DNA of 64,000 nucleotides from Bdellovibrionales bacterium Ga0074139 (GTDB taxonomy: Bacteria > Bdellovibrionota > Bdellovibrionia > Bdellovibrionales > Bdellovibrionaceae), in the NCBI GenBank assembly GCA_001464795.1, contig LNEB01000011.1:124001-188000 (forward strand), read 5' to 3'. Shown here piece after piece: positions 52,762-58,395 of this stretch; the stretch's first letter is position 1; each line of letters begins with the position of its first letter. The notes under the pieces are model-generated. The model ran no database searches, was not told the origin of the DNA, and saw only the letters and a program-made list of their open reading frames with translations. The position numbers were made by a program, and so were the translations under genes.

Positions 52762-53424
52762 ATGAAATCATCCTATAAAAGATTACCAACACATATTGCT
52801 GTCATACCAGATGGCAATCGTCGCTGGGCAGTTTCACAAGGCTTAAAAAAATCAGAAGGTTACCAACAAGGACTCGCACCTGGAATTGATTTTTATGAAC
52901 AGTGTCTAGAGATAGGAATTCCTCAACTTACTTTTTATGGGTTTACAAATGATAATATGAAGCGTCCTGCAGAGGAAACTATAGCATTTCGCGAGGCTTG
53001 TGTTGCTGCTGTTGAAAGCATGAAGGAAAAAGAAGCGTCGATTCTTGTTGTTGGCAATAGTGAATCTCAGGTTTTTCCACCGGAATTAGTAAAATACCGA
53101 ACTCGGCAAAATACAGGAACTAATCGAATGAAAGTTAATTTTTTAGTCAATTATGATTGGCATTGGGATATTAATTCTGCCACTCAAAAATCTGTGGGCG
53201 GTTCTCGTAAAGATTTATTACAATCCATTGCATCAGCTGAAATTCCAAGAATAGATTTAGTTATTCGCTGGGGTGGCAGGCACAGGCTTAGTGGCATGCT
53301 ACCTTTACAAAGCGTTTACTCTGATTTCTTCGTCATTCAAAATAATTGGCCGGACTTAGTTCCACAGGATCTCGAATCAGCTCTTCATTGGTACTCAAGC
53401 CAGGATGTTACACTTGGGGGCTAG
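52762..53424 (+). CDS. Divergent cis-prenyltransferase (UppS family)
   Basis: This 220-residue member of the undecaprenyl diphosphate synthase family keeps the catalytic Asp in VIPDGNRRWA and the closing RL...VYSDFF segment. It departs from consensus: the usual GHxxG reads GYQQG, the SSENW-like loop reads TNDNM, and RTGGEHR reads RWGGRHR. It may therefore make a shorter or different prenyl product rather than undecaprenyl diphosphate. No isoprenoid genes are beside it. It overlaps the opposing AHSA1 gene by 17 bp. Confidence 0.8.
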   Translation: MKSSYKRLPTHIAVIPDGNRRWAVSQGLKKSEGYQQGLAPGIDFYEQCLEIGIPQLTFYGFTNDNMKRPAEETIAFREACVAAVESMKEKEASILVVGNSESQVFPPELVKYRTRQNTGTNRMKVNFLVNYDWHWDINSATQKSVGGSRKDLLQSIASAEIPRIDLVIRWGGRHRLSGMLPLQSVYSDFFVIQNNWPDLVPQDLESALHWYSSQDVTLGG

Positions 53425-54376
53425 TTGAAAATAAATCTAAACTTTTTTCCAACCTATCCAATGAGCCATTCCAACCTTCCATCATACCTTTTCGCTCAGC
53501 AATAAATGCTTCGAGCTCGGCCTTATTAGAGTGATCAATAGTTTCTGATTTTAATGTGATACGAGTTATGCCGGGCTCTTCTTCAACTAAGATCACTGAC
53601 GTTAACCATTTAGCCGGCCATACGGGTGCACCAGGATGGGTAGTATTTTTACCACTTTCATCACAAAATTCTTGAGTAAATGATATAAATTCTGGTGGTT
53701 TAATTTTTTGATAAGTAGACCGCCCATAAAAGTTAAATTCATTATTTCCCATTTTATAAAAAACGCTGCCGCCAACCTCAACTTTTCCCTTCAAAACTTT
53801 CATCGAAAAACCTGTGGGTGGTTGCCATTTTTCGAATTGAACTGGCTGAGTCAACATATCAAACACTAAACCTATTGGGGCTGTAAAAACACGATTTAAA
53901 AGAAACACTTTCTTATGATTTCTTTTTTCTTCAAGGTACTCACCAAGTCGATCCCATGTTGAATTTCCATTCGCCTCTTTTATAAATTGGCTCATATCCT
54001 TTGCTACTTGCGGTGATTCAAAGGTCATAGTCATACGCATGGTGGTTTTTCCATGGCTTTCACTGAAAGTAACGTCCACTTTGAATAATGCTTTCTGATT
54101 TTCATTGGCACCGTGGTCATACTCGAGTCGTTTGTAAGGTTCGACAGTATAGTAAGTTGTCACATTCGGATAATCTGTTCCGTCTGGCCCATGCATAGTG
54201 TATATCCATCTTCCACCAGGGCATAGGTCTTTACTTTTAGTTGTGATACTAAAGCCTCTGGGGCCCCACCACTTTGCAACCTGATCTAAATCAGTCCATG
54301 CCCCCCAAACCATTTTAATGGGGGCATCATATACTCTCGTAATTAAAAGCTCGTTGGAATTATTTTTGGGCTTCAT
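53408..54376 (-). CDS. Tandem AHSA1/SRPBCC domain protein
   Basis: This 322-residue protein has two START-like (SRPBCC) domains of the AHSA1 type in a row. Domain 1 (about 8-150) starts LLITRVYDAPIKMVWGAWTD and has GPRGFSITTKSKDLCPGG (in part); domain 2 (about 158-315) starts VFLLNRVFTAPIGLVFDMLT and has EVGGSVFYKMG. These small hydrophobic-cavity proteins bind lipids or partners; function is unknown. ATG 54376 is used with AAGGA upstream; two TTG codons precede it. Confidence 0.88.
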   Translation of the reverse strand: MKPKNNSNELLITRVYDAPIKMVWGAWTDLDQVAKWWGPRGFSITTKSKDLCPGGRWIYTMHGPDGTDYPNVTTYYTVEPYKRLEYDHGANENQKALFKVDVTFSESHGKTTMRMTMTFESPQVAKDMSQFIKEANGNSTWDRLGEYLEEKRNHKKVFLLNRVFTAPIGLVFDMLTQPVQFEKWQPPTGFSMKVLKGKVEVGGSVFYKMGNNEFNFYGRSTYQKIKPPEFISFTQEFCDESGKNTTHPGAPVWPAKWLTSVILVEEEPGITRITLKSETIDHSNKAELEAFIAERKGMMEGWNGSLDRLEKSLDLFSTSPQV

Positions 54377-54548
54377 CAACAACTTTTTCCTTAGACTTAA
54401 TTCGAGCTAATTAGATCTGGGGCAAAACTCAGGGCTAATAGCCCACCCCAATTTAACAATAAAACTATTTTCAAATTATACTATTCCCTATTAATGATAG
54501 GCATCTCTTTAAATAGAAACAAGATCTAGTTTTCTATTACTCCTAACA

Positions 54549-57168: not shown

Positions 57169-58287
57169 TTAATCTATGCTTTGAAACTCATACAGGGCTC
57201 TGGCACTTCCGTTTTCCTCAATCAATTTTTGGCAAGAAACTCCTACCAATAAATGATCGGTGCTATGTTTTACAAATTGATTGAAGTTTTGGACAGCCTC
57301 ATTGCAACTTGCACGGTCCATCTGAATGATGACCAAATGACCAGTTGAAGCTGCTTTGTAGGCAGCATTAAAAATTTTTTCCTCTGAACCATGATAGGAT
57401 CCTAAACCAAGACAAATAACATCAGGATCTGAAGAATACACTTTTGCAAAATAATTCTCAAAATTTTCATTCAATGAGCCTTTGACCTCAACTTGGTTTA
57501 TTCCTTCTATCACTAGCTCTGCAGAGTCCTCGATGGTAAAGACAACTCGCCCTTGATTTTTTAACTCCTGAAGAAGTGAATATATGGTCGTTGTCTTACC
57601 TGAGCCATTAGCGCCAGTAACAAAAATTAATCCACTTTTCTTAACTGTCCATTTTTTAAATTGAGCTAATGCTTCTTTGTTACCCGTTATCTTTTCAAGA
57701 GGTAATACATCTTTTTCGGGTTGATAAATTCTTAAAGTTACTCTTGGCCCAGTTACTGTTTCTAATTTTTGATAGCGAACTTGCAAAACATCATCTTCGC
57801 TTCGATGTAAATACATTCTTCGGGAGTGACTTTCGTCTGATAAATTTGAAATTTGATTGAGCGAATGATTCAACTCTTTAAATGTGTCCTCTTGAATCGA
57901 AGTCAAAACCTGCAATCCGACCTGAGTCCGATAGGAGATTTCATAATTTCCCTTTGAAGGATAGATATGAATCAATCTAGATCCATGATCAAAGGCGTCC
58001 CAAATTAATTTCTCTGTGATCGAGTGTGCACTCAATTCCATTTCATGCTCCTTGTTTTTTGATCGCTCTAAAATAAGCTGGCTAAGTTTAAGAAAATCTT
58101 TTTGTGTGTGAATTTGAGAGGCTTTTCCAGAAATGTGAATTTCGAGTTCGTCTTTTAGAAATCTCCACTGACGCCCTAATTTGTGTCCTGGAATCTTACC
58201 CGTTTGAAGCCACTTATAAAGTGTACTCGGAGTCGTTTTTAAAAATTGAACAGCTTCATCGAAATCTAAATATTTTTTGTTATCCAT
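57169..58287 (-). CDS. Excisionase-type HTH fused to a degenerate GspE/PilB/PilT-type ATPase
   Basis: Residues 1-55 are an excisionase/MerR-type DNA-binding domain (YLDFDEAVQFLKTTPSTLYK, then WLQTGKIPGHKLGRQWRF). Residues 85-370 have the fold of secretion/pilus ATPases: N-domain strands, Walker A GANGSGKTT (225-233), Asp box TIEDSAE (251-257) and DPDVICLGLG at the Walker B position. The usual GEIRD glutamate is replaced (GLGSYHG) and the following TLHT-type His segment reads IQMDR. So ATP binding is likely, hydrolysis doubtful. No pilin, PilC or secretin genes are nearby. The upstream region has repeated CCGATA-type sites. Confidence 0.85.
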   Translation of the reverse strand: MDNKKYLDFDEAVQFLKTTPSTLYKWLQTGKIPGHKLGRQWRFLKDELEIHISGKASQIHTQKDFLKLSQLILERSKNKEHEMELSAHSITEKLIWDAFDHGSRLIHIYPSKGNYEISYRTQVGLQVLTSIQEDTFKELNHSLNQISNLSDESHSRRMYLHRSEDDVLQVRYQKLETVTGPRVTLRIYQPEKDVLPLEKITGNKEALAQFKKWTVKKSGLIFVTGANGSGKTTTIYSLLQELKNQGRVVFTIEDSAELVIEGINQVEVKGSLNENFENYFAKVYSSDPDVICLGLGSYHGSEEKIFNAAYKAASTGHLVIIQMDRASCNEAVQNFNQFVKHSTDHLLVGVSCQKLIEENGSARALYEFQSID

Positions 58288-58295
58288 GGACTTAT

Positions 58296-58344
58296 TATCG
58301 GTAATATTTAGAAATAATAAACCTTTATTATCCGATACTATCCG
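58296..58344. promoter_or_regulatory. Repeated CCGATA-type sites upstream of the HTH-ATPase gene
   Basis: TATCGG at 58296-58301 and CCGATA at 58332-58337 are inverted copies. TATCCG occurs at 58329-58334 and again at 58339-58344, exactly 10 bp apart, on one DNA face. TAATA/TATTA arms flank both. The cluster sits in the 108-bp gap directly before the HTH protein's start and fits an autoregulatory operator. Confidence 0.45.
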
Positions 58345-58395
58345 TTGGTATTATTTATTACTCAGGACTTAGGTCCTTATTTTTTATTTCTAAAC

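Follow-up and report, generated by a model that had tools for sequence, protein, structure and literature searches.

The window (the 64,000-nucleotide stretch of Bdellovibrionales bacterium Ga0074139 DNA analysed here) carries a minus-strand ORF at 57169-58287 encoding a 372 aa protein in which a helix-turn-helix (HTH) domain is fused to a GspE/PilB core. The first-pass annotation had extended this feature to 58344; the coding sequence reaches no further than 58287, and the first operator repeat described below begins at 58344. It had also read the product as an excisionase-type HTH joined to a degenerate pilus/secretion ATPase, and domain searches agree: HTH_17 (PF12728) matches residues 6-49 (E 1.2e-12) and T2SSE (PF00437) residues 90-357 (E 9e-35). 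The HTH_17/BldC-like winged HTH (residues 6-50, 58138-58272) is followed by a predicted linker helix (residues 56-77, 58057-58122), an N2D-like domain (residues 90-190, 57718-58020) and a P-loop ATPase core (residues 196-368, 57184-57702), all on the minus strand. The neighbouring genes in the window encode a trypsin-like protease and a pyrophosphatase. A terminator-like hairpin, AGGACTTAGGTCCT, with a T tail lies on the plus strand (58364-58377) between the fusion gene and the trypsin-like gene. Elsewhere in the window, one minus-strand ORF (53408-54382) apparently contains two similar AHSA1/SRPBCC-like halves, as read from its translation only.

Domains and residues of the fusion protein

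Top matches of the 372 aa sequence in the PDB are PilB and PilF. An AlphaFold model of the protein (mean pLDDT 81.5) superimposes on the GspE and PilB structures with a Z of 23 over about 280 residues. It shares with them the N2D and P-loop core fold, Walker A and the arginine fingers. However, it lacks the tetra-cysteine zinc part and the C-terminal helices of PilB/GspE, and carries the HTH at its N-terminus instead of an N1/MshEN domain.

The catalytic Glu of PilB comes after Walker B, and Mg is bound by E357 of the Asp box; two arginines are contributed by the adjacent subunit, and H420 touches the gamma-phosphate (PMC5424180). A Walker B Glu mutant of Myxococcus xanthus PilB has normal ATP affinity but no ATPase activity (PMC5544727). 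In the window protein, Walker A (GANGSGKTT, residues 225-233, 57589-57615) is present, as are the Asp box (TIEDSAE, residues 251-257, 57517-57537) with E257, which matches PilB E357, and both arginine-finger equivalents, R171 and R187, in the N2D-like domain. The protein has neither the catalytic Glu nor an equivalent of H420. The Walker B loop is degenerate, GLGSYHG replacing GEIRD (residues 294-300, 57388-57408), and so is the HIS box, IQMDR (57313-57327), with D324 where PilB has H420. The first-pass annotation had pointed to each of these four motifs, and all were found as described.

The same residues were compared across ten full-length fusions. The catalytic Walker B Glu is missing from every one of them. 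The Walker A lysine is present in nine, the tenth (L049) having a broken motif, GNGMTT. Within the Asp box, E253 is kept in all ten and E257 in six; the four homologues without this Mg ligand include several Myxococcota members. The His equivalent to PilB H420 is retained in 2/10 and lost in 8/10, and each arginine finger is retained in 8/10. Read at the level of the sequences, this pattern is one of nucleotide binding and subunit packing kept and hydrolysis lost. Nucleotide binding may not be general, or may not be needed, across the whole family, because the Walker A of L049 is broken and the Mg ligand has gone in several Myxococcota members. In every domain pN is well under a saturated pS, and lowest in the HTH; the fusion protein is therefore under purifying selection.

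The HTH is also the most conserved part of the protein, with a mean pairwise identity among homologues of 0.71 versus 0.37 for the ATPase core. Modelled alone (78 residues), it folds as a winged HTH whose best PDB match by Foldseek and VIA-align is the BldC-DNA complex 6ama (Foldseek E only 0.01; Z 7.1 at 1.9 A over 55 residues); excisionases score equally. With 55 residues to align, a modest Z of about 7 is to be expected. The excisionases matched include RdfS (8dgl) and Pukovnik Xis (4j2n), and the domain also matches excisionase PHROGs. The recognition region differs between groups: TTPSTLYKWLQ in the Bdellovibrionota/alphaproteobacterial group versus TPHSTLYRWLR-like in the Myxococcota. 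A search of a defence-system library gave weak, domain-level matches to MADS proteins (mad1 HTH, mad8 P-loop).

Distribution and genomic context of the family

The ten full-length homologues come from Bdellovibrionota, Myxococcota and one alphaproteobacterial order. They form a single clade (support 100/100), separate from the ordinary GspE/PilB proteins of the same genomes. The gap is also visible in the scores within each genome, where full-length members have E below 1e-156 and ordinary motors 1e-38 or worse. In all nine members checked, both HTH_17 and T2SSE were matched, and the two-domain order noted in the first-pass annotation is kept. Four loci (L054-L057) that match through the HTH alone were set aside. 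Scanning genome contigs with a single sequence returned no relative, and the relatives were found with an alignment-based scan.

Among 369 Bdellovibrionota genomes, at least six have matches, at least five of them with an intact gene and one with a broken copy. The broken copy, in a Bdellovibrio MAG (G069, loci L045 and L053), has its frame interrupted by a frameshift and stops, its Walker A is damaged, and GGATAATAA is still present upstream. The genome collection adds fusions in Myxococcales, Lujinxingiaceae and 'Alphaproteobacteria' MAGs, and one further fusion gene lies on a 5.8 Mb contig. The rates are at least 5/377 in the phylum of the Lujinxingiaceae MAG, at least 2/142 in the alphaproteobacterial order and at least 1/398 among the genomes sampled in that phylum. 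All of these counts are lower bounds, since in each genome the large family searches covered only the top few candidates. The plasmid matches listed include no close relative and were either GspE/PulE-type or weak and unannotated. The host groups include predators, and most of their members do not carry the fusion gene; a link to predation is suggested by the host groups alone.

No neighbour is shared across 12 loci, and the fusion gene is therefore solitary. Nine T2SSE matches were obtained in the genome of the window; they include ordinary motors that retain GEIRD, and no such motor is near the fusion gene, in agreement with the earlier remark that no pilus genes are close by. The only fusion locus seen with a motor gene at short distance is L051 of the Lujinxingiaceae MAG, where a divergent, intact GspE/PilB-like ATPase gene with GEIRD (L051:6586-8523, minus strand) lies about 0.7 kb away. 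This gene stands alone, and at the loci other than L051 no pilus genes adjoin the fusion gene; nor was any homologue found within a pilus operon.

The 10-bp direct repeats upstream of the gene

Upstream of the window gene, on the minus strand, repeat 1 (CGGATAGTAT, 58335-58344) is followed exactly 10 bp further by repeat 2 (CGGATAATAA, 58325-58334) and, in register, by a weak repeat 3 (AGGTTTATTA, 58315-58324). An extra repeat-like copy (CCGATAATAA, 58292-58301), located 33 bp from repeat 2, does not keep the 10-bp register. The two copies of TATCCG (CGGATA on the minus strand) that the first-pass annotation had placed exactly 10 bp apart are indeed present at 58325-58344 and belong to this array. 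In the window alone, they are only weakly beyond chance, in the top 1.3% of AT-matched stretches.

A 10-bp direct repeat, in register, is found upstream of every homologue tested (n=11). Within the 70 nt before the start codon, the best lag is 10 in 10/11 homologues (one of them tied with 17) and 20 in the eleventh. Against dinucleotide shuffles, in a set that included the broken G069 copy and left out L075, the Stouffer z reaches 10.2 at lag 10, followed by 5.9 (lag 20) and 3.3 (lag 7). With AT-matched stretches of the same loci as control, each homologue falls in the top 0.2-2.4% (Fisher p 8e-13); such combined p-values overstate independence because the homologues are related. The upstream sites are thus conserved in relatives as a 10-bp direct repeat and not as inverted sites, and the inverted CCGATA pair described earlier is not conserved in the homologues.

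In the Bdellovibrionota/alphaproteobacterial group the repeat resembles (T/C)GGATAATAA, and GATAAT occurs 15 times versus 0.5 expected; in the Myxococcota group it resembles CATTRGTGTT, and GATAAT is absent. Such a change of sequence at constant spacing is predicted if the protein reads one repeat for each turn of DNA. The repeat sequence and the HTH recognition region differ along the same clade split. In 6/11 upstream regions (versus 0.66 expected), TTGAC is located ahead of the array, and in four of them it begins at -36 from the start codon. If the transcript were leaderless, this position would suit a -35 element, and the array would separate it from the start. No sigma-70-like match was found in the window's own promoter region.

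In three genomes (G000, which is that of the window, G014 and G056) the two-copy operator pattern occurs only before the fusion gene. Regulon searches with two- and three-copy patterns, in five and seven genomes, returned the gene's own promoter in most genomes and otherwise approximately what a reversed-pattern control gave; the three-copy pattern, which is the looser one, added few sites. The array of G083 escaped both the two- and the three-copy patterns. From these searches, autoregulation is the only supported target. GGATAAT-like 10-bp repeats, partly palindromic, also precede a bactofilin-like ORF in G373 (L095:1491-1526, loci L095/L097), and may represent a possible second target. The window genome further contains a dispersed repeat of three near-identical 26-mers, TGACAAT(T/C)CTAGAAAATAGAAGATAA, at C3:113667, C14:47177 and C14:117030.

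A putative autoregulator with a motor-derived core

An HTH, a motor ATPase that lacks the hydrolysis residue and 10-base repeats before its own gene in every copy examined point to a self-regulating, nucleotide-binding gene switch. We consider it probable (about 0.65) that the protein is an autoregulatory one-component regulator, in which a BldC-like HTH acts on 10-bp repeats and the motor core, no longer able to hydrolyse ATP efficiently, works as a switch of oligomerisation or nucleotide state. Multimers of BldC assemble head to tail on direct repeats (PMC5859096), and on a long BldC site one DNA turn separates the bound subunits (PMC11963761). By analogy, the winged HTHs of successive fusion protomers would occupy the 10-bp direct repeats in head-to-tail order, each protomer taking up one DNA turn on the same face of the helix. 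HTHs aligned on the array would occlude the promoter and repress the gene itself. The regulator thus most likely represses its own promoter, a preference over activation that follows solely from the position of the array. The PilB/GspE core would retain nucleotide binding and subunit packing, efficient ATP hydrolysis having gone, and its oligomerisation or nucleotide state would set the cooperativity of HTH assembly on the operator. For the fusion protein we infer DNA binding, repression, nucleotide binding, the oligomeric state and the signal. Both checks set out in the first-pass annotation, one on homologues and one on the upstream sites, favour its interpretation, which is supported in part. 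The nucleotide sensing and ring formation that it proposed are hypothetical, and for the direct repeats head-to-tail binding of the BldC type would be no worse an explanation than a ring on DNA, and perhaps a better one.

Several known systems resemble parts of this arrangement. The fusion shares with Streptomyces BldC (PDB 6ama/6amk) an HTH_17/MerR-like winged HTH and direct repeats approximately one DNA turn apart in variable number, binding to them being predicted for the fusion. However, BldC is a stand-alone protein of 68 residues acting on 9-bp repeats, while the fusion has 372 aa, 10-bp repeats and an attached motor core. Judged from its sequence, it is outside the definition of BldC by its size and its extra T2SSE domain. 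The core has the GspE/PilB fold, yet fails the defining catalytic features (no catalytic Glu and mostly no H420-type His) as well as the operon context, as the gene lies outside a pilus operon and no linked pilin, platform protein or secretin genes were found. M. xanthus PilB (PMC5544727) is a precedent for a PilB core serving in signalling via its nucleotide state, but it is an active motor with no DNA-binding domain. Excisionases (RdfS, Pukovnik Xis and lambda Xis) have the same winged HTH fold and bind cooperatively along DNA; in contrast, the fusion has no linked integrase in view, an attached ATPase core and repeats at its own promoter. MerR regulators bind an inverted repeat as a symmetric dimer at a promoter with a long spacer; the conserved sites of the fusion are direct and not inverted repeats.

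The losses in the core could also be explained by a DNA-binding autoregulator in which the motor part is an inert dimer or hexamer scaffold and nucleotide plays no regulatory role. The degenerate Walker A of L049, the Asp-box Glu lost in four homologues and the lower conservation of the core than of the HTH all suggest this. Nevertheless, the Walker A lysine (9/10) and both arginine fingers (8/10) persist across three phyla despite the loss of the catalytic Glu in all members, and we regard an inert scaffold as unlikely, though less so than the other alternatives. Retention of the arginine fingers and of the N2D region would also be expected if the core joined or titrated a PilB/GspE ring, or touched the platform protein, so linking motor state to transcription. 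The signalling role described for M. xanthus PilB itself (PMC5544727), the normal PilB/GspE genes of the window genome and the GspE-like gene near the L051 fusion are in line with such coupling. However, no other locus has adjoining pilus genes and PilB-bearing relatives mostly lack the fusion gene, which makes it rather improbable.

The likeness of the HTH to excisionases, both in structure and in PHROG matches, and the patchy distribution raise a further idea, namely an excision/recombination accessory (RDF) of a mobile element to which an ATPase was added. This is very improbable, since no recombinase was noticed among the ORFs beside the window gene, the 12 loci have no neighbour in common and have so far shown neither a linked recombinase nor an att-like site, the plasmid matches listed include no close relative and the repeat array is always at the fusion gene's own promoter. 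Lost catalytic residues and one visibly broken copy (G069/L045) might finally recall a decaying PilB-like pseudogene. Ten intact frames, pN far below pS, a fully supported clade and the conservation of HTH and repeats leave almost no probability to it, and for the family as a whole conservation rules it out.

We rate the fusion as a probable one-component regulator whose sensor scaffold is unusual. More tentatively, at slightly under even odds, it may define a new one-component family, thinly spread over three phyla, in which an ATP-locked, hydrolysis-dead secretion-motor core switches the oligomerisation of a BldC-type HTH filament, and operator sequence and HTH have evolved together around a constant 10-bp spacing. 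No paper on an HTH-GspE fusion was found in the literature searched, and it may have been described elsewhere. Motor function is what secretion and pilus ATPases are known for. If the proposed reading is true, a motor fold would have been converted to a transcription sensor by keeping nucleotide binding and packing, dropping the residue for hydrolysis and adding a DNA-binding domain. Since the 10-bp register is fixed across differing repeat sequences, how the protein assembles on DNA can be tested directly.
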